Source: Candidatus Brocadia sp. WS118 (GTDB lineage: Bacteria > Planctomycetota > Brocadiia > Brocadiales > Brocadiaceae). From it: 39,780 bases of DNA. Of the stretch, positions 1 through 39,780 are shown piece after piece (positions within the stretch are counted from its first letter, which is position 1; every line of letters starts with the position of its first letter). Made by a program: the position numbers and the translations under genes. The notes under the pieces were generated by a model. It had not been told where the DNA came from. It searched no databases and saw only the letters and a program-made list of their open reading frames with translations. The DNA is taken from assembly GCA_007618135.1 (NCBI GenBank), contig PHFX01000165.1, positions 1 through 39,780 of the forward strand, read 5' to 3'.

Positions 1-144
1 CGCCGCACAGAAGCTGGAAACAAACGCTATTCGTAACATATTAAAAACTCGTTTTCCTGCTATTGCAGATGCATTGGAAACACAGTCGGATATATTAACT
101 CTTAGACCAATACTTGAAAAAGCCCGATCTGTTGTTGCAAATGA
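1..144. repeat. Terminal direct repeat, left copy (circular assembly overlap)
   Basis: These 144 bases are identical to 39637-39780. They lie inside one open reading frame that continues in the same frame across the junction, as expected when a circular or circularly permuted genome is written linearly with an overlap. The unique length is therefore 39,636 bp. A true short terminal repeat of a packaged phage is the alternative; a repeat in the middle of a coding sequence makes the assembly explanation more likely. Confidence 0.9.
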
Positions 145-1468
145 AACAGTAGGGGATATAGCAAGCAAGGTTGATCTTTCTAAACCCTGGACATGGATGG
201 AGGGAATTCGGGCAGGGAAAAAATTAATAGGACTTCCCGAAACACCAGGAAGAATACCCTCGGTTATTCAATCCACAGTTCCTGAAATTGCTAGAAGAAG
301 TACACAGCCTATCGCACAGTCAGTGGCTCAAACAATTATGGAGCCTGGTATTCCTGCAACACCGCAAGAGACTATTCCTGAATATCAATCTGTGACTCGT
401 GAAGCACAGGTGCCAGTATCCCAGGAGGAAGATTACTTAACTGAATATGAACGAAAATTAGGAATTCTTGATGATTGGTATAGTGAAAAAGCACAACAAT
501 ATACCACAAAAGATCAAAGAAAAGCGCTGGATGATGAATATAAAAGAGTGAAAAGTCAGCTTGATGAAGAAAGAAGTATAGGAAAAGAACGTCAGGCAAT
601 TGAGAAAGATAAGCCAAAAAGCGAAACAAGCAGTCAGGTATTAGATGTTGTAGATAACTTATTATCACGAGATACCAAACCTATCACTGGTCTTAATCAA
701 ATAGAGTCGTATATTCCAGGGACATCCGCTAAATATACCGCCTCACTGTATGATCAGCTAAAAAATATGCTTTCTCTTGAAAATAGGCAAAAGCTAAAGG
801 GGCAGGGTCAAATATCAGACTTTGAAGCTCGTATGCTTGAAAAAGCGAGTACTGCTCTCAATAGGAGTTTGTCGGATGAAGACTTTAGAAGAGTGCTTCA
901 GGACTTAAAAAATGATTTATCGAAAGAACAATCGGGATTACCACAACAACCCGAAGCCCTCACGGGTCAAAAAAAAAACATGGAACAATCTGGTACCCTT
1001 CCACGGGAGATGAGTATATTACCCGCTAGGGCAAACATAACGCAAAAATTCGGACAGAAATCACGATACGATGTATTTTCAAAAGGGGTAAATTATGGTG
1101 TTGATTTTTCTGTTCCGTCAGGAACCCCCGTATCACTTCCTTCAGGAAGATATAAAGTAATAGAAACATACGCAAAATCTCCAAATAAAGGAAGAATAGG
1201 AAATGCTACAAATAGGGGATATGGTAACTCTATTTTGGTAGAAGATATGGAAACAGGTGAAAAACTACGCTTTTCTCATCTTTCTAAAGTTCATGTAAAA
1301 CCTGGAGAAATTATTAATGGAGGTAAAATCGCTCAATCTGGGACATCGGGAAATGCATCGGGAGCGCATTTGGATATTGAGTATTACACCCCATCAGGAA
1401 AAATAGCAGATGTAATGAGGTCACGGTATGGAAAGTTATTATTTCCACAGGAAATAGCAATGAAATAA
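1..1468 (+). CDS. Virion ejection protein, C-terminal part with degenerate M23 peptidase domain (continues from 38576)
   Basis: This is the 3' part of a gene whose 5' part is 38576-39636; joined across the repeat the product is 842 residues. Reading is open from base 2, so a start near 74 is an artefact of the window edge. The segment here has a low-complexity Gln/Pro/Ser-rich middle, charged predicted helices, and a C-terminal M23 (LytM/peptidase) domain at about 1010-1460. In that domain the usual HxGxD motif reads VNYGVD (His replaced by Asn, codon 1091) and the usual HxH reads HLD (second His replaced by Asp, codon 1373), so two zinc ligands are changed. A virion-borne wall hydrolase helps DNA entry in many phages, but this copy may be structural or inactive. 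A run of ten A (969-978) just before the domain could allow slippage. Confidence 0.85.
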   Translation, partial: AAQKLETNAIRNILKTRFPAIADALETQSDILTLRPILEKARSVVANETVGDIASKVDLSKPWTWMEGIRAGKKLIGLPETPGRIPSVIQSTVPEIARRSTQPIAQSVAQTIMEPGIPATPQETIPEYQSVTREAQVPVSQEEDYLTEYERKLGILDDWYSEKAQQYTTKDQRKALDDEYKRVKSQLDEERSIGKERQAIEKDKPKSETSSQVLDVVDNLLSRDTKPITGLNQIESYIPGTSAKYTASLYDQLKNMLSLENRQKLKGQGQISDFEARMLEKASTALNRSLSDEDFRRVLQDLKNDLSKEQSGLPQQPEALTGQKKNMEQSGTLPREMSILPARANITQKFGQKSRYDVFSKGVNYGVDFSVPSGTPVSLPSGRYKVIETYAKSPNKGRIGNATNRGYGNSILVEDMETGEKLRFSHLSKVHVKPGEIINGGKIAQSGTSGNASGAHLDIEYYTPSGKIADVMRSRYGKLLFPQEIAMK

Positions 1469-2435: not shown

Positions 2436-2548
2436 AAAAACAAGAAAAACGAAAGAATATTTCTTTGAAAGAGTATAATAGATTAAAGGAAATAGAAAAG
2501 AAGTACGAAAAAGAACATAAATACGATTATTTGAAAAATAGGTGGTAA
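2432..2548 (+). CDS. Small basic coiled-coil protein, hypothetical (38 aa)
   Basis: A very charged 38-residue product, rich in Lys and Glu (KEYNRLKEIEKKYEKEH), predicted as one helix. The ATGA overlap with the upstream stop and the 2-nt gap to the endolysin start suggest translational coupling in one lysis operon. The family is not recognised. Confidence 0.6.
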   Translation: MKKQEKRKNISLKEYNRLKEIEKKYEKEHKYDYLKNRW

Positions 2549-2550
2549 CT

Positions 2551-3447
2551 ATGAGATCACTTTTTCGCTCAAAACATCGGGTAACACAACCGTTTGGGGT
2601 TAATACCGACTATTATAAAAAGTTCGGGCTTGCAGGACACGAGGGTATTGATCTTGTTCCCACGGGCACTGTATGGGATGTATTGTGTCTTGCCGATGGG
2701 GTAGTAGTAAAAGATGATGATATAGCAGGAGAGCCGCTACAAGATGCATACGGAAAGTTTGTCACCGTATGGCACCCCTCAATTAACAAGGCAACTCAAT
2801 ATTGTCATTTAAAAGAAAACTATGTGTCTCTTGGTGATAAAGTGACCTACGGTCAAAAAATAGGTCTTATGGGTTCGACGGGAAATTCAACAAGCGCTCA
2901 TGTTCATTTAAATGTATTTGATGTTGACGCACAGGGAGTAAGGCTTAACAAAAACAACGGGTATTTAGGGGGAATTGACCCACAACCGTTTCTTGATGAA
3001 GAACCAGAAAAAGAACAGCCCGTTGATCAGGTGTGTATGAGCAAATCGCAGGCGGATGATTTTCAACGAGTAAAAGACGGATGGAATAAAGTAAGAGAAA
3101 AATTAAACGTTGAAGACTCTGTAACCGTAGTGATTGCAGAGGTTGATAAATTAATTAAATACGAAGAAAAGGTGCTACAAAGCGAAAAAACTATTGCAGG
3201 CGCAAAAGATCAAATTGCAAAACTTCTTGAAGATTTAACCGCAGAAAAGGAACGAAACGAGAAACTTTTACTTGAGTCGAATAAAATAGTTGATAAAGCA
3301 GAAGAGTTGGAAAAGAAATATCAACAAGCGGTACAAAACAGCGCACGGTATTTAGAGCAAATTGACGCTCTAAAAAAAGACTTAGCAGAGCCTAATGACG
3401 GCATTACACTTATTATAAAAGGGTTAAGAAAATTAATAGGGAGGTGA
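2551..3447 (+). CDS. M23-family peptidase, probable endolysin
   Basis: A 298-residue product. The N-terminal half is an M23 zinc metallopeptidase with a complete ligand set: H30 and D34 in GHEGID, H86 in YCHL, and H117/H119 in AHVH. Such enzymes cut peptide bonds in peptidoglycan cross-bridges or stems. Residues from about 155 to 290 form a charged, helical, coiled-coil-like tail (many Glu/Lys, KLLEDLTAEKERNEKL). There is no signal peptide, so release would need a holin. The start at 2551 is chosen for the AGGTGG at 2540-2545; an upstream GTG at 2542 overlaps that site. Membrane proteins on both sides support a lysis cassette. Its intact active site contrasts with the altered M23 domain in the virion protein. 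Confidence 0.88.
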   Translation: MRSLFRSKHRVTQPFGVNTDYYKKFGLAGHEGIDLVPTGTVWDVLCLADGVVVKDDDIAGEPLQDAYGKFVTVWHPSINKATQYCHLKENYVSLGDKVTYGQKIGLMGSTGNSTSAHVHLNVFDVDAQGVRLNKNNGYLGGIDPQPFLDEEPEKEQPVDQVCMSKSQADDFQRVKDGWNKVREKLNVEDSVTVVIAEVDKLIKYEEKVLQSEKTIAGAKDQIAKLLEDLTAEKERNEKLLLESNKIVDKAEELEKKYQQAVQNSARYLEQIDALKKDLAEPNDGITLIIKGLRKLIGR

Positions 3448-26658: not shown

Positions 26659-27456
26659 ATGGCTACAGTAAAAACTTTAGTTGTTGCAGGTGGTGGTGGT
26701 GGTGGTTCTGGTGTGAATGGTGGAAATGGTGGTGGCGGCGGAGGAGGATTAGTCTATAATGCTTCAAAAACAGTAATAGCCCAAGCGTATTCTATAACGG
26801 TAGGTGGTGGTGGTGCCGCACATACTAATGGAAGTGACAGTGTATTTGACGACATAACTGCCACTGGAGGAGGATATGGGGGAAATTATAATAGTGAAAA
26901 TGGCGCAAATGGAGGCTCAGGAGGAGGAGGGGCGGGCGGATACCCTTCATCATTCGGTACGGGAGGAACAGGAAGTCAGGGGTTTAACGGAGGTAACGGA
27001 TTACAAAGCGATAATCCGATAGGCGGTGGCGGTGGAGGAGCTGGAGCAGTAGGAAAAGGCTGGTTGGCTGATAGCTCAGCGGCAGGAGGAGATGGTCTTC
27101 AGTATGATATTAGCGGTACTAATACTTATTATGCTGGTGGCGGTGGTGGCGCACAATGGCAAGGTGGCACACAAAATGGAGGACAAGGCGGTGGAGGATC
27201 TGGTAATGGAGCGGCAGTAGGGGGAAATGGAACAGCAAACACTGGTGGCGGTGGAGGCGGTGGAACAACAGGGGGAACTGGTGGGTCAGGTATTGTTATT
27301 ATCCGTTATGCAACCGCAGATTTTGGATCATGTACAGGAGGAACCATTACGACAAGTGGTGCAGATACCATCCACACATTTACAACAAGTGGAACCTTTA
27401 CGGTTTCGTTAACTTCTCCTGGTCAATACCTATCTGCTTCTTCAAAATATTGGTAA
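26659..27456 (+). CDS. Glycine-rich surface protein (Gly_rich family), probable adhesin tip
   Basis: A 265-residue product with many GGGGGG runs (LVVAGGGGGGSGVNGGNGGG) and the closing GGSGIVIIRYATADF, followed by a THTFTTSGTFTV-like strand pair. Polyglycine sandwiches of this kind form receptor-binding tips in phage fibres (as in S16-like gp38), and similar domains occur in bacterial surface proteins. The gene has no strong SD and is 2 nt from its neighbour. Confidence 0.72.
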   Translation: MATVKTLVVAGGGGGGSGVNGGNGGGGGGGLVYNASKTVIAQAYSITVGGGGAAHTNGSDSVFDDITATGGGYGGNYNSENGANGGSGGGGAGGYPSSFGTGGTGSQGFNGGNGLQSDNPIGGGGGGAGAVGKGWLADSSAAGGDGLQYDISGTNTYYAGGGGGAQWQGGTQNGGQGGGGSGNGAAVGGNGTANTGGGGGGGTTGGTGGSGIVIIRYATADFGSCTGGTITTSGADTIHTFTTSGTFTVSLTSPGQYLSASSKYW

Positions 27457-31632: not shown

Positions 31633-32427
31633 ATGGCTATAGACCTTAATGATAAGACAGCAAATGGAAATAATTTAACAAATGGAGGGACAACAGAGGT
31701 AACCTCAGATTTACCTTTTCCAGCAAGCACAATTGCTGTTAATTTCGATAGCGGAAGTTCTCAATATCTTTATGCGGCAGATAGTGCCTCTCTTTCTATA
31801 ACAGGAGATTTAACCTTGGAAACATGGGTGAAATTTACTTCCCTTCCATCGTCAGGAGCCACTCAAACGCTTATTTCTAAAATAGGATCTGGTTCCCCCA
31901 ATTGGAGTTATGATTTTCGTTTTTGGAACAGTAGCGGGACATATAGACTTCTTGCACAATTTAGTAGTGATGGAGGAATTGTAAATCTTGATTCAGAATT
32001 TGTTGATTGGACGCCATCCGTAGAAACGTGGTATCACGTCGCTCTTACTTATACAGCATCCAGTAGTTCTTACAAATTTTATATAAATGGATCTCAACAG
32101 GGAACAACACAAACTGGATCTCAGACCTCTATATTTAATAGCTCTGCGAGGCTTGAGATTGGAGCATTCGGAAGCGGTGTTCTAGTGCAAGACCCTTATA
32201 ATGGAAAACAGGATGACACTCGTATATGGAATGTCGTAAGAACACAGTCTGAAATTTCTAATAATTATAATAAACAACTTACTGGTTTAGAATCTGGATT
32301 ACAGGCATACTGGCCTTATAATCCATTAACTAATATAAAAACAACAAATGGATTAGTTGTTGTTTCAGTTAAAACAATTGAAGGGTTAGCTATTGCATCA
32401 GTTAAGTCTGTTAACGGTCTTCAATGA
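31633..32427 (+). CDS. LamG (concanavalin-like) domain protein, probable carbohydrate-binding fibre
   Basis: A 264-residue product. A LamG/laminin-G-like jellyroll: FDSGSSQYLYAADSASLSI, GDLTLETWVKFTSLPSS, WYHVALTYTASSSSYKFYING, DDTRIWNVVRTQSEI, LQAYWPY. These bind glycans or proteins. The C-terminus has short NGLVVVSVKT / EGLAIASVKS / NGLQ repeats. It is related to the LamG part of the 33469 protein. The ATG follows AAAAT with no SD, 3 nt after the previous stop. Confidence 0.8.
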   Translation: MAIDLNDKTANGNNLTNGGTTEVTSDLPFPASTIAVNFDSGSSQYLYAADSASLSITGDLTLETWVKFTSLPSSGATQTLISKIGSGSPNWSYDFRFWNSSGTYRLLAQFSSDGGIVNLDSEFVDWTPSVETWYHVALTYTASSSSYKFYINGSQQGTTQTGSQTSIFNSSARLEIGAFGSGVLVQDPYNGKQDDTRIWNVVRTQSEISNNYNKQLTGLESGLQAYWPYNPLTNIKTTNGLVVVSVKTIEGLAIASVKSVNGLQ

Positions 32428-32493: not shown

Positions 32494-33456
32494 ATGAAGC
32501 TAACTTACACAGATATTAAAAATCAGTTTTTAAGAAATATCGGATTGCAGGGGCAGACAAACACAAACGTTCTTGCCGACTTTGATCTTAACTTAGGCTC
32601 ACGGTATCAAATGGTATTAGCAAGAATGAAGGATTACATGACGCAAACGACCGTTTCTAAAACAACGGTTGCCAGTCAGCAGTATTATAATTACCCCGCT
32701 GGTATAGTAAATATAGAGAGCGTTGTTGTTACCATAGGATCAGTTCGATACCCTACAACGGTTGTTAATTCACAATATCAATGGGACTGGCTTAATTCTT
32801 TACAAGTACAGCCGACTGCTATTCCACAGTTTATATTTCCGAGAAAATTAGACTTTGGTATTTATCCTATTCCCCAAGACGCATACACAATGACGTTTAA
32901 TTATCATTATCGGGATAGAAACCTTTCTGTAGAAGACTATACCGATGGAACAGTTGCGGTGACCAATAACTCAACTTTGGTTACGGGAACGGGGGTTACA
33001 TTTACCGAGGCTATGGAAGGAAGATGGTTAGAAATTACCTCAACCTCTAATACGGGGCAGGGATATTTCTATCTTATTACTGATGTTCCCACATCCTCAA
33101 CACTTACCATATCTCCTAGTTATGAAGGCGCTACAGGGAGTACTCTTACATATAGGATTGGTGAGTGTCCAGCGTTTCCTGATGAGGGACATATTATTCT
33201 TGCCGATGGAGTAACTGCCGACTTTTATCAAGGAGTAAGAGCGGATATAGAAAAGGCAACGTGGTTTAATAATAGATTTTGGACTGGCGATGGACAAAAC
33301 TCTTCACGAAAAATAGGCGACTCCACTATTACTGGGGGGTTAATAGGGTTGTATAACTCCTACGAGGATAGAAACTCAGAACGAGTAGTTGAAAGAAAGA
33401 AAAAAGTCTATCCATTCCTTGATCAGACGTGGGGAATGACACTTACAAACTCGTAA
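32494..33456 (+). CDS. Head-to-tail adaptor protein (podovirus gp4/gp11-like)
   Basis: A 320-residue product. The helical opening (TYTDIKNQFLRNIGLQGQTNTNVLADFDLNLGSRYQMVLARM) and the later DEGHIILADGVTADFYQGVRADIEKA fit tail adaptor proteins that dock under the portal. The middle (DGTVAVTNNSTLVTGTGVTFTEAMEGRWLEI) is an inserted Ig-like/beta domain of a kind common in such proteins. Context: next to the large tail protein. Confidence 0.7.
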   Translation: MKLTYTDIKNQFLRNIGLQGQTNTNVLADFDLNLGSRYQMVLARMKDYMTQTTVSKTTVASQQYYNYPAGIVNIESVVVTIGSVRYPTTVVNSQYQWDWLNSLQVQPTAIPQFIFPRKLDFGIYPIPQDAYTMTFNYHYRDRNLSVEDYTDGTVAVTNNSTLVTGTGVTFTEAMEGRWLEITSTSNTGQGYFYLITDVPTSSTLTISPSYEGATGSTLTYRIGECPAFPDEGHIILADGVTADFYQGVRADIEKATWFNNRFWTGDGQNSSRKIGDSTITGGLIGLYNSYEDRNSERVVERKKKVYPFLDQTWGMTLTNS

Positions 33457-33468
33457 CATTTTATTTAT

Positions 33469-36400
33469 ATGGCACATAAACCAGTGAAAGAAATTAGCTC
33501 GTTTTTCGAGGGGATTGCCGATTTTCCCAAACTTGGCGGTTCAGCATCATATGCTTCAGGTAGATCAGTTGACCACCGTACTGATCCAAGAAGCATCTCT
33601 TTACTTCCTCGTACTATTAAAGAGTCGGGAACCGTGGTTACTGATTTACCAAAGTGGTCAACTACTCCCCCTACTACTTGTAAAAATACTTATATATATG
33701 GAAATGCGGGGAATATTTATCAAAGAGATTTAAATGGAAGCTACACATATTTACGCACCGTACCTAACTCACACGGGAATGGAATAAATTGGTTTGGGGA
33801 GGATAATTTTATTTATTATACGTCTGATAGCTTGGTGGGTCGCTATGGTCCGATATGTAATAATCCTACGTTTAATGATGATTTTTTTGGATCACAAGGG
33901 GGCGCTCGCACTAATACAAACTCACTTGAATTATTAAGCGCATCAACGCAATATGCATCCCGTGCTTCAACCGCATCACTTCAGATAACGGGTGATTTAT
34001 CAATAAATGCCCAAATATATCCTTACTCTCTCCCCACCACTGGAGAATCAATGACACTTGTCTCGAAATGGACTGAAAATGGCGACTTACGGTCATATAA
34101 GTTTGATATTGCACCTGTATCCAATTATTTCGGCGATGGGTCAGATGGAGCACTTACGGTGAATTCTCCTACTACTGAGGCTCCTATAGACAGTGCGTGT
34201 ACAGGGACAATTAATACACAATCACTTTCGGCGACAAATGCAGGTTTTGCATCGGGACAAGAGGTTCTTATTATTCAAATGACTGGCACAGGAGCTGGTA
34301 CATGTATGAGAAATACCATCCAAAGTTATACTGCGGGGACAATTACGCTTGTAAATAATCTTAATGCCACGTATTCATCGGGAGCACAAGTGCGAGTGTT
34401 ACCTCAATATACAGATGTTACTATTAACTCAACTTATACCGCAAAAGCATGGAACGGAACAGTGGGAGGCATACTTGCTTTTATAGCAAATGGAACACTT
34501 TCAGGAAGCGGAACCATTACTGGCGATGGAAAAGGATTTAGGGGTGGCGCTGGAGTTAATGGATCTGGTACGGCAGGAAAAGCATATCAAGGAGAAGGAA
34601 CAAGCGGAACAGGATCACTTTCACGATCAGCAAATGCAAACGGTGGAGGTGGGGGTGCTGATTATGAGCACGGTGGAGGTGGAGGAGGCAACGGAGTTGC
34701 AGGATCAAACGGTCAGGGAGCATCGGGAGGCATTGGTGGTTCAACTTCAGGAACTGCCGATTTAACAACTATGGTAATGGGAGGAGGCGGAGGAGGTTCA
34801 TGCTTTGCCCAAGCCACCCCCACAGCGGCAAATGGAGGTGCGGGAGGCGCTATTTTATTTTTGTCTGCCGCAACATGGAGTTTTACGGGATCAATTACCA
34901 GCAATGGAGCAAATGGAGAAGCAACAAATAATGCATCAGGTATTCCAAGAGTGTGTGGTGGAGGAGGTGCGGGAGGGTCTATTCTTATTAAATCACAAGT
35001 AGCGACTTTAGGATCGGGACTGATTACTGCCAGCGGAGGAACAGGAGGACAAGCATCAGGAGGAAATAGTGGAGGAAATGGCGGAGCGGGAAGAATACAT
35101 CTTGATTATTACACATCTTATACAGGAACCACCACACCCACCTTAGATGCTATACAAGATAATAATTTGGGATCTTCAGATGGTCATGTTATTCGCCTTC
35201 AGGTTTCTGACGACGGTTCGGCGGTTGAGACATATAGCAGACCCATTACATTATCAATTGATACATGGCAACAAGTGGGGGTAAGCTGGGATGCATCAAC
35301 ATCAACTGCGGAGTTTTGTATTAATGGGGTAACCCTTGGTACACAAGTTGGTACGATGAATTCAATTGATGCAAATGCATCGGTATTTAATGTGGGGAGA
35401 TATTTAGATGGTTCGAGTACTACTTCAGGGCTTTATAACGGGCTAATTGATGAAGTTCAAGTATTTAGTATTGTCCGATCTGTCAATGATTTTCTTCTTT
35501 CTATTGCATCGGAAATTGTTAGTACCACAACAGGTCTTGCGGCGTATTACAAATTCAACGCAAGTCCAAACGACTCAACTGCTAACGCAAATAACTTAAC
35601 CCTTACGGGAACGCCTTCTTATTCTACAAACACACCGTTTATTGGTGCTACTGACCCTATCAATATAGATCAATCGCAAACGCTATCGGGAAATACTTAT
35701 ACAACCCCTACGACAATTACGGAAAATGCGGCAAATACGTTGGAATTTACTCCTACAAAAGACCCGCAAAAAAGTGTTTCTGTAACTATTGTTGCAATTG
35801 GAACGGGAGACTGGACTCTTACTATTCACGATCAATACAACAATACTATAGCTTCAAAAACGGTGGCAAATGCCAGTTTATCAACGGGGGTATTTGAGTT
35901 TATTTTTTCAAGTGCATGGCGACCGCAGATAAATGAGGAATATCATTTTCATATTACTTCAACGGTTGCTGACGGGACTGTGCAAACGGGAACAAATGCT
36001 GATCTTTCTACTGTGTGGTATAGAACTTACTATGGATTTTTAGTAGAGGACATGCAATATCATCCTATTGCTCCCATGCTTCAGTTTTTGTGCTTTGGAA
36101 ATGAAAGATATGTTGCAACGCTAGAGGCGACACTCTATAACCCAAATGCGATAACCTTACCCGCAGGATGGAAGATTCGATGTTTTGCGTATTGGAATGA
36201 ATATCTTGCAATTGGCACATGGCAGGGGGATACGGTAGATGAATATGATAGCGGAAGAATATTCTTCTGGGATGGTATTTCACCTACATATAACTTCTTT
36301 ATTGATGTTCCTGAAGGTGCAATAAATGCCATGCAAGGATCAAGGGGTAAGTTATTCTTTATTGCGGGAAGTAGATGCAAGCTATTGGTATATGAAGGTG

Positions 36401-37083
36401 GAGCGCAGGCGAGAAAATTAAAAAATCTTGTCAACAGTGACAACACTGATGTTATTGATATATTTCCTGGAGCAATGACTATGTGGCAAAGTCTTATGAG
36501 AATTGGAGTTGCGGGAAATAACGATGATGCTGATGCACAACAGGGCGTTTATACATGGGGATCAGTCAATGAGAGATACCCAGACTCTCTTTCGTTTGAT
36601 TATCCAATTTCAACAGGAACCTATACGGGAAATACGGTAAAAATAGGGCTAGTGACTACCGTTAATTCACGTCTTTTAATAGGATGGCAAGATAATGTTT
36701 CTTTTGGAGTTGATTATGTCGATGTATCAAACCCCGTGTATCCACAAGGAGAGATAGATTTCCTTATAGAAGATGATGGCGCAATGTATCACGAAAAAGA
36801 AGCCATTACCATAACAAGTCAATACGAGCCGCTAGCATCAGGTCAGTCTATAACACTTCAATATAAACTTGATAGAGCTGATAATTGGACTCAATTTACC
36901 GCAGATAGTGAGACAAATAGTATTACGCAAAGAAGGCAAGTTATTACCAATGGATCACGATATAGGGAATACGAAATAAGTGCAATCCTCGAAACAAGCA
37001 ATACCTCAGATACTGAAGGGGCAAAGATGCTTTCTATATCAATAGAAAAGGACACCTTATCGACGGAAACAAGGGTGGGATAA
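33469..37083 (+). CDS. Large tail protein with nested LamG and glycine-rich insertions
   Basis: A 1204-residue product. The N-terminus (EISSFFEGIADFPKLGGSASYASGRSVDHRTDPRS) and the C-terminal half (LQFLCFGNERYVATLE..., KIRCFAYWNEYLAIGTW, LFFIAGSRCKLLVYEGG) look like the propeller-type tail-nozzle or stabilisation protein of short-tailed phages. It is interrupted by the first half of a LamG domain (ASTQYASRASTASLQITGDLSI...), which is itself interrupted by a FGDGSDGALTV...GGGGGG domain (about 210-540), before the LamG second half (WQQVGVSWDASTSTAEFCINGV) continues. So three domains are nested. LamG is paralogous to 31633. The start follows ATTTTATTTAT without SD. Confidence 0.72.
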   Translation: MAHKPVKEISSFFEGIADFPKLGGSASYASGRSVDHRTDPRSISLLPRTIKESGTVVTDLPKWSTTPPTTCKNTYIYGNAGNIYQRDLNGSYTYLRTVPNSHGNGINWFGEDNFIYYTSDSLVGRYGPICNNPTFNDDFFGSQGGARTNTNSLELLSASTQYASRASTASLQITGDLSINAQIYPYSLPTTGESMTLVSKWTENGDLRSYKFDIAPVSNYFGDGSDGALTVNSPTTEAPIDSACTGTINTQSLSATNAGFASGQEVLIIQMTGTGAGTCMRNTIQSYTAGTITLVNNLNATYSSGAQVRVLPQYTDVTINSTYTAKAWNGTVGGILAFIANGTLSGSGTITGDGKGFRGGAGVNGSGTAGKAYQGEGTSGTGSLSRSANANGGGGGADYEHGGGGGGNGVAGSNGQGASGGIGGSTSGTADLTTMVMGGGGGGSCFAQATPTAANGGAGGAILFLSAATWSFTGSITSNGANGEATNNASGIPRVCGGGGAGGSILIKSQVATLGSGLITASGGTGGQASGGNSGGNGGAGRIHLDYYTSYTGTTTPTLDAIQDNNLGSSDGHVIRLQVSDDGSAVETYSRPITLSIDTWQQVGVSWDASTSTAEFCINGVTLGTQVGTMNSIDANASVFNVGRYLDGSSTTSGLYNGLIDEVQVFSIVRSVNDFLLSIASEIVSTTTGLAAYYKFNASPNDSTANANNLTLTGTPSYSTNTPFIGATDPINIDQSQTLSGNTYTTPTTITENAANTLEFTPTKDPQKSVSVTIVAIGTGDWTLTIHDQYNNTIASKTVANASLSTGVFEFIFSSAWRPQINEEYHFHITSTVADGTVQTGTNADLSTVWYRTYYGFLVEDMQYHPIAPMLQFLCFGNERYVATLEATLYNPNAITLPAGWKIRCFAYWNEYLAIGTWQGDTVDEYDSGRIFFWDGISPTYNFFIDVPEGAINAMQGSRGKLFFIAGSRCKLLVYEGGAQARKLKNLVNSDNTDVIDIFPGAMTMWQSLMRIGVAGNNDDADAQQGVYTWGSVNERYPDSLSFDYPISTGTYTGNTVKIGLVTTVNSRLLIGWQDNVSFGVDYVDVSNPVYPQGEIDFLIEDDGAMYHEKEAITITSQYEPLASGQSITLQYKLDRADNWTQFTADSETNSITQRRQVITNGSRYREYEISAILETSNTSDTEGAKMLSISIEKDTLSTETRVG

Positions 37084-38575: not shown

Positions 38576-39780
38576 ATGAAATATTCTGATCTTGGAAGAC
38601 TAGCAAAAAACAAACAACCCGATAAACTTTCTTCTTATTCTGATGAAGAAGCGGGAAGGTTAGTTGCTGGCATGTACCCACAGTATGGGAAAATGGTAAC
38701 TGAAGAAGAAACCATAGAGTCTCCCTCTTTTGAAACACCGAGTTATTCAGCTTATGAAGCACCTGATGTTTCATACGAAGCGCCTGTATATGAGACAAAA
38801 CAATCACCGTTTGTTCCACAACAGACAACTATACCAGGAAAAACAGAAACTCTATCTGCAACGACTGATCCTGAGCAAGCTATACGATCACAACCTCCAA
38901 AATCATGGATGGATAAAGCAAAAGATTTTGCTGTAGAAAATCTTCCCGTAATAGGAAGTGTTGCGGGATCGGTGCTTGGTGGAGTAGCCGCTGGGGGATT
39001 TGGCGCTATTCCTGCCGCTGGAGCAGGTTCTTTACTTGGAGAAACGTTAAAAAGAAAAATAAAAGGTGAAGAGGTAACCCCTGAGTCTCTTAAAACAGCC
39101 GCAGGATCTGGTATTGCTGGAGAGGTTATAGGAATGGGCGCAGGTCAAGTTGTTAAAGGGGTAGTATCTTCAATTGCTAAAAATGCCGCAAAAACTTTTG
39201 GAAAGTTTAATGCATCCCAAGCATTAAAAGTAGTTCAGGAACACGGAAAAGACATAATAAATCTTATAGAAAAATATGTTCCACGAAATGCGGGATATGA
39301 TGAGGTGTTAGGGTCAATAGAAAAACGGGGAAGGGGAGGGGTATTTGATGATATATTAAGGCAATCTGAGGATGCAATACAAAGTGTCGCTAAAACGGTA
39401 AAAGATAAAATTCCCGTTGATGAAATACTGGACTCATTAAAGTCACAACGTGATTTATTAGCCACACAAATAGGAAATGCGAAAAAACTTGCACAAATAG
39501 ATAAAATAATTCTTGAGGCTCAGAAGCGATATAAAAAAGGTATTAGTGTTTCCGAGGCTCTTAAAATACTTCGTGCGGGTAATGAGGCTTTTGGGAAAAA
39601 TGTTGTTGATGTCGATGTTGCTGATGCGGTAACTACCGCCGCACAGAAGCTGGAAACAAACGCTATTCGTAACATATTAAAAACTCGTTTTCCTGCTATT
39701 GCAGATGCATTGGAAACACAGTCGGATATATTAACTCTTAGACCAATACTTGAAAAAGCCCGATCTGTTGTTGCAAATGA
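38576..39780 (+). CDS. Virion ejection protein, N-terminal part (continues at 1..1468)
   Basis: Starts with KYSDLGRLAKNKQPDKLSSYSDEEAGRLVAGMYPQY, a motif typical of large phage internal or ejection proteins. A Glu/Pro/Tyr-rich disordered stretch follows, then a glycine-zipper-like membrane-active segment (LPVIGSVAGSVLGGVAAGGF, about residues 121-140) and long helices. The full product is 842 residues with the altered M23 domain at its C-terminus (see 1..1468). The frame is continuous across the 144-bp repeat. Such a protein could open or line a channel across the host envelope. It starts 1 nt after the upstream stop. Confidence 0.8.
   Translation, partial: MKYSDLGRLAKNKQPDKLSSYSDEEAGRLVAGMYPQYGKMVTEEETIESPSFETPSYSAYEAPDVSYEAPVYETKQSPFVPQQTTIPGKTETLSATTDPEQAIRSQPPKSWMDKAKDFAVENLPVIGSVAGSVLGGVAAGGFGAIPAAGAGSLLGETLKRKIKGEEVTPESLKTAAGSGIAGEVIGMGAGQVVKGVVSSIAKNAAKTFGKFNASQALKVVQEHGKDIINLIEKYVPRNAGYDEVLGSIEKRGRGGVFDDILRQSEDAIQSVAKTVKDKIPVDEILDSLKSQRDLLATQIGNAKKLAQIDKIILEAQKRYKKGISVSEALKILRAGNEAFGKNVVDVDVADAVTTAAQKLETNAIRNILKTRFPAIADALETQSDILTLRPILEKARSVVAN
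39637..39780. repeat. Terminal direct repeat, right copy
   Basis: Identical to bases 1-144; see there. Joining the ends keeps one open reading frame. Confidence 0.9.

Follow-up and report, generated by a model that had tools for sequence, protein, structure and literature searches.

A LamG domain interrupted by an AgmC_N-like module within a predicted podoviral tail nozzle

The window analysed here, i.e., the whole stretch of 39,780 nucleotides of contig PHFX01000165.1 from Candidatus Brocadia sp. WS118, encodes a protein of 1204 residues (33469..37083, + strand) that, according to its open reading frame and predicted fold, is a podoviral tail nozzle with nested insertions. The models show the fold of T7 gp12 and SU10 gp17, that is, a seven-bladed propeller plus a platform. 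The propeller is interrupted by a LamG domain, and this domain is in turn interrupted by a second module, partly rich in glycine (hereafter the Gly module), that is related to the N-terminal domain of the AgmC family. The explanation that we favour, with some reserve, is that of a nozzle whose LamG/AgmC_N-like nest was gained once and would grip the host surface at the tail tip.

The contig is a single piece of a 5.04-Mb genome bin. Its two ends carry an identical stretch of 144 bases (1-144 and 39637-39780, read by eye), and the phage genome is therefore probably complete, circularly assembled and of about 39.6 kb. Directly upstream of the nozzle gene lies an SU10-type adaptor gene (32494..33456, + strand; SU10_adaptor of Pfam, PF24175, 6.6e-11). 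The window also includes a gene for an uninterrupted LamG protein (31633..32427, + strand; Laminin_G_3, 3.7e-21), which shows, within the same genome, what LamG looks like when its inner site is empty, and a gene for a protein of the Pfam family Gly_rich_2 (26659..27456, + strand) that is unrelated to the inserted Gly module. M23 peptidase domains were observed in two other genes (74-1468 and 2542-3447), whose products are possible cell-wall degrading enzymes.

Comparison of the whole 1204-residue protein with Pfam and PHROGs gave no family match, and the sequences of solved nozzles showed no significant sequence match to it. Its last ~440 residues match proteins in two phage records, those of Manatee Spring phage and TM7 phage, which have only 649 and 670 residues. 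For L061, a relative of 636 residues without the inserts, the predicted structure reached a pLDDT of 92.4 and a pTM of 0.87, and its 18 best matches in the PDB (Foldseek) are all phage tail or nozzle proteins; these include HRP29 (4e-15) and T7 gp12 (1e-13), as well as Pa223, E1004, A4, P22 gp10, PhiM1, SU10, VP1, Pan3 and Sf6. A further structure comparison of this model retrieved propellers with Z of about 24-26, the best of which was virginiamycin B lyase. The AlphaFold2 model of residues 5-1204 of the window protein has a mean pLDDT of 89.6 and a pTM of 0.61, a value that makes the placement of the domains relative to one another uncertain; its best structural match is the SU10 nozzle (4e-9), and other phage tail or nozzle proteins are also found among its best matches. 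The gene that immediately precedes the nozzle is an adaptor homologue in 59 of the 61 rows in which this could be tested (68 nozzle rows in all). From this gene order and the nozzle-like fold of L061, we identify the window protein as a nozzle and its phage as short-tailed.

The protein start and the first two blades of the propeller correspond to residues 1-148 (33469..33912, + strand), a part that is common to the relatives devoid of inserts (hereafter bare), and blades 3 to 7 plus the platform to residues 863-1204 (36055..37080, + strand). The blades were counted by eye on the strand lists of the L061 and full-length models, with two before the insert and five after it, and the LamG/ConA-like domain, at residues ~149-740, falls between blades 2 and 3. 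Single WD-type propellers align to the nozzle model over about 275-305 residues, in ranges such as 42..1083 of the model and with Z of about 24-25; such alignments across the inserts are expected if the strands on both sides close one propeller. Bare relatives, with 627-718 residues, have the same two flanks and lack both LamG and the Gly module; the 23 complete ones contain only the propeller, the platform and one small resident beta domain. This domain, at residues 741-862 of the window protein (35689..36054, + strand), is thus kept in both kinds of nozzle, and LamG sits just before it in the nested ones. The first-pass annotation had described a propeller-like tail protein interrupted by other domains, and both the predicted structure and the bare relatives bear this out. 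Likewise, the prediction for the nearly complete protein agrees with the nested, rather than serial, arrangement proposed there. The resident beta domain was also seen in another context, in a protein of 945 residues (L009:2363-5200, matched by query residues 742-839), and may be mobile too.

The likeness of this protein to the podoviral nozzles T7 gp12, SU10 gp17, P22 gp10 and HRP29 involves the propeller and platform, the adaptor gene upstream, and the domains that emerge at the second opening of the propeller. The tip or nozzle domains of SU10 and T7 are described as exiting the propeller between blades 2 and 3 or at blade 3, and the Ig-like nozzle domains of SU10 as located between blades 2 and 3 (PMC9509320, PMC6702177). 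In contrast, the opening of the window protein is occupied not by tip or Ig-like domains but by LamG and, nested in it, the AgmC_N-like module. The idea of an insertion at the place occupied by tip domains in solved nozzles is therefore sustained by the blade count made by eye and by the work on T7 and SU10; by the same comparison, the nest would lie at the tip of the tail.

The LamG domain is formed by two separate segments, residues 149-218 (33913..34122, + strand) and residues 566-740 (35164..35688, + strand), the latter with a trailing segment. The second half alone is recognised by Laminin_G_3 (8.9e-11, 42.6 bits, profile 51-147), whereas the first half alone and the uncut nozzle protein gave no match to this profile. 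When both halves are joined, the match to Laminin_G_3 (PF13385) rises to 52.1 bits (1.1e-13), above the cut-off of 27.6 bits, and covers positions 4-147 of the 151 in the profile. The intact LamG protein encoded at 31633 aligns in a collinear manner with both segments: its residues 40-95 with residues 157-212 of the nozzle (43% identity, 6e-8), and its residues 100-239 with residues 569-706 (30%, 9e-13). The gap between these two pieces is of 4 residues in the intact protein versus 356 in the nozzle. These alignments uphold the kinship between the LamG part and gene 31633 that had been noticed earlier. A control HMM built from two uninterrupted LamGs outside nozzles, that of 31633 and that of L043, placed all 45 distinct nozzle first halves above all 900 shuffled sequences (lowest real score 16.7 bits, highest shuffled score 7.6 bits); moreover, joining the halves adds a median of 40.1 bits, as compared with 4.0 bits at most when the first half is shuffled. 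Both halves are thus one domain, split at residues ~219-565, and the agreement between them is far beyond chance.

This LamG differs from the ConA-like LamG described by Laminin_G_3 in the module that interrupts it and in its apparently permuted register, its end being formed by a segment that resembles a leader. After LamG, at 35536-35652 (residues 690-728), the segment YYKFN...DSTANANNLT...TPF is similar to the leader found ahead of LamG in the 31633 protein, and BLAST aligns residues 6-167 of that protein with residues 701-846 of the nozzle (4e-6). From this resemblance in sequence, the domain looks like a single unit of a tandem LamG array that entered the nozzle in permuted register.

The Gly module, at residues 219-565 (34123..35163, + strand), comprises a beta-rich part (residues 219-334) and a fast-evolving glycine-rich part (residues 335-565). 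It has ~350 residues and sharp ends, with its start at about F-G-x-G-x-D-G and its end after GRIHLDY..TSYTGTT.PT, and near-identical ends also bound the module outside nozzles. All 11 members tested match the NCBIfam model gliding_AgmC_N (NF047640). The module of the window scores 114.8 bits (E 4.3e-33) within a range of 111.8-114.8, over positions 27-399 of the 412 in the profile, and its two parts match separately, the beta-rich first 116 residues with 1.6e-9 and the glycine-rich rest with 2.8e-16. These scores are far under the cut-off of 275 bits that defines equivalogs of NF047640; hence, as far as profile matches can tell, the module is a divergent relative of the AgmC N-terminal domain and not AgmC itself, and no function should be read from the AgmC name. 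The likeness to gliding_AgmC_N extends over the glycine-rich and the other part alike, and a further difference is one of context, namely a phage nozzle instead of a known gliding context. The first-pass annotation had related the glycine-rich insert to gene 26659, a link that failed: hhalign gave a probability of 7%, whereas a divergent relative of the module that is free-standing reached 100%, NF047640 does not match gene 26659, and none of the 11 module members matches Gly_rich_2 at E up to 0.1; only a glycine-rich style is common to both. Two genes of L006, at 2751 and 4098, were matched by BLAST as possible relatives of the module; the module HMM did not recover them, and they were deemed low-complexity matches.

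Outside nozzles, the Gly module is free-standing in at least 20 phage ORFs, of which 19 have 362-420 residues with little else and one has 857 residues. Such a free-standing gene was found beside tail-fiber genes, and in one locus (L151:4477-6832) two ORFs with the module, of 396 and 390 residues, lie back to back. The module is also present in at least four other proteins of tail type, without LamG, i.e., L031, L033 and L136, of about 1200 residues, and L144 (cut), the last three being placed with L031 by layout only. In L031 the module is followed by a choice-of-anchor R domain, and a tape-measure-like gene lies nearby, from which it was deduced that this phage is probably long-tailed. Among the genomes of the phylum to which the bin belongs, 27 of 392 gave matches to the module, the window's own included, and most of these matches are weak. 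The strongest foreign ones (L085:1318-2583 and L086:177-1868) show a leader resembling a signal peptide (by eye) and then the AgmC_N-like module, which suggests that the bacterial proteins are probably secreted; in addition, genome G073 has several ORFs with a signal-peptide-like start and this module. In the search with NF047640, the only match among 75 genomes of the class was in the window's own, and there was none in 14 control genomes. Searches of 50,697 phage records, PDB sequences and PHROGs with the Gly module gave no match. Structure searches with the full model gave no separate match to the module, given that propeller matches fill the lists. Two proteins from Bathycoccus and Ostreococcus viruses in BFVD (A0A7S6NY19 and A0A6H1QWC9) were third and seventh among the matches of the full model and may carry the module.

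Domain architecture was classified by HMM over 158 sequences (157 loci plus the window), repeats being dropped. The complete nested order, i.e., propeller start, first LamG half, Gly module, second LamG half and C-terminal part, occurs in 47 rows, of which L001, L084 and L096 are copies of the window; 45 are distinct. Bare nozzles account for 23 rows, plus L021, which is cut at its start. Rows with a partial nest are fragments (L008, L026, L039, L041, L045, L123 and L131), cut at the end of a contig or locus, or apparently frame-broken in L041 and L123. In L008:3-1481, the LamG/nozzle part runs, by eye, into a stretch resembling a DNA methyltransferase, as a result of misassembly or fusion. 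For the comparison suggested earlier, relatives lacking both inserts are provided by the bare nozzles; a nozzle with LamG and without the Gly module was not found among the 158 sequences. On a tree of the shared C-terminal part, with 44 nested and 24 bare rows, the architecture changes only once (SH-aLRT 99), and none of 500 shuffles gave a value as low; the same single change was recovered on a tree of the core with 55 rows (support 96). The core trees were built without L033 and L009, which are other types of protein; rows with fewer than 200 core residues or fewer than 300 module residues were left out of the 55- and 68-row analyses. L018, a near copy of L017, was left out of the 68-row trees and of the AU tests. 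The tree alone fits a gain or a loss; we infer a gain because the nozzles of T7 and SU10, as described, have other domains at this position. The nest is thus an old inherited composite, probably gained once.

According to the favoured explanation, an ancestral nozzle would have acquired, in the opening between blades 2 and 3, a LamG that is itself interrupted by the AgmC_N-like module, and this composite, gained once, would then have been inherited. By analogy with the hexameric nozzles of T7 and SU10, the nozzle would form a ring of six copies at the far end of the tail tube; LamG and the variable glycine-rich loops would bind a polymer of the host surface, and the tail tip would thereby be held to the envelope before ejection of the DNA. 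By the same analogy, binding to the host surface at the tail tip is the likeliest role of the nest. The main rival to this role, an unlikely one that nevertheless deserves weight, is structural: the inserts would serve to extend or brace the nozzle, or as a gate of its channel, like the four Ig-like nozzle domains of SU10, and would have no part in receptor binding. The insertion in the same opening as those domains speaks for it, as do the tree, where a single branch separates the nested rows from the bare ones and none of the former has lost the nest, as would be seen for a required part, and the conservation of the first 116 residues of the Gly module, the best conserved stretch of the nozzle protein (mean identity 67%). 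However, the 23 complete bare relatives manage without the inserts, and LamG and, judged by their leaders, AgmC_N-like modules occur elsewhere in surface or secreted proteins. Also contrary to a structural role, the glycine-rich part is hypervariable. It is the part that diverges fastest: its identity between L077 and L079 is 62%, and 35 columns are gapped, as compared with 90% for the core and 96% for the first LamG half; its changes fall largely in pockets between conserved glycine runs (by eye). In five of five pairs its dN is 1.4-5 times that of the core; dS is saturated, and relaxed constraint therefore explains this divergence as well as selection does.

A second and improbable alternative is that of a recently traded cassette, with LamG and the Gly module passing frequently from one tail gene to another within a phage and also from phage to phage. 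In its favour, the Gly module occurs free-standing in phages, in large tail proteins other than nozzles and in proteins of bacteria, and LamG and core are of conflicting ancestry in L029. The L029 core is 62% identical to that of L025 and 37% to that of L048, and the second half of its LamG is 51% identical to that of L025 and 67% to that of L048; a union of L029 with L048 by core and one of L025 with L029 by LamG are both rejected by AU tests, whose p-values (7e-45 and 4e-4) are optimistic, since the tests were applied to groupings already apparent on the trees. LamG exchange thus appears once, between phages, in a single metagenomic contig of 6.9 kb for which an assembly chimera is possible. 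Against frequent trade are the single change on the core tree and the relationships of the modules themselves. The rows nearest to the window's LamG, i.e., L007 (61%), L006 and L100, are also nearest to its nozzle core. All 44 nozzle LamGs are set apart from those of 31633 and L043 (support 97), which argues against recent copying between the two LamG genes of the window. For the Gly module, a single clade of the 44 nozzle members is not rejected (p 0.92), on a weak tree with 5 of 65 inner branches well supported and with the long-branched L046 left out of the clade tests. The window's module had looked nearer to other rows than to L006 and L007; its recent exchange was discarded, since its grouping with L006 and L007 is not rejected either (p 0.74). 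Furthermore, no second copy or relative of the Gly module was found elsewhere in the window's genome, and among the matches listed no LamG accompanied or split by this module occurs outside nozzles. The earlier suggestion that surface-binding modules are traded between tail genes consequently does not hold within the window's phage, where LamG groups with those of other nozzles; in a wider sense it retains some value, in view of the unrelated contexts of the Gly module and of L029. Finally, domains arranged in series, with an interruption only apparent through chance similarity of the flanks, are scarcely credible: the uncertain domain placement in the full model would allow them, yet the joined LamG match, the alignment with 31633, the shuffle control, the propeller aligned across the inserts and the outer site empty in bare relatives all oppose them.

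With regard to the manner in which the nest would bind, the T-even gp38 adhesins have been described as reaching OmpC with hypervariable loops that stick out of a poly-glycine II sandwich (PMC12892980). The tail-tip adhesins gp38 of S16 and PP01 and the Gly module have in common glycine runs separated by variable segments, a resemblance in pattern only. In the model, the glycine-rich residues 348-457 have few strands and no helices, with 10-residue mean pLDDT of about 77-95, and this stretch would fit a poly-glycine II (PGII) fold. A broader reading is tentatively put forward: the Gly module may be an autonomous adhesion domain common to bacterial surface or gliding-type proteins and phage tails, its glycine-rich half being a poly-glycine scaffold with hypervariable contact loops. 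Phages would have borrowed it to grip bacterial surfaces, and it would now belong to at least three different components, i.e., the podoviral nozzle inside LamG, a large tail protein of siphophages and a free-standing gene beside tail-fiber genes.

Nozzle inserts, whether LamG, lectin-like or of other kinds, were looked for in the open-licence literature, where no description of this arrangement was found, nor any paper on AgmC. The nozzles described here provide a two-level domain insertion with most of the states for comparison at hand, i.e., the empty outer site, the intact LamG, the free module and the nest. They place a lectin-like nest, in uncultured phages, at the spot of the nozzle known for tip domains. 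They also link an uncharacterised module of phages with a family of gliding-motility proteins, through the N-terminal domain of the latter, such that tests of the ligand on either side would inform the other.
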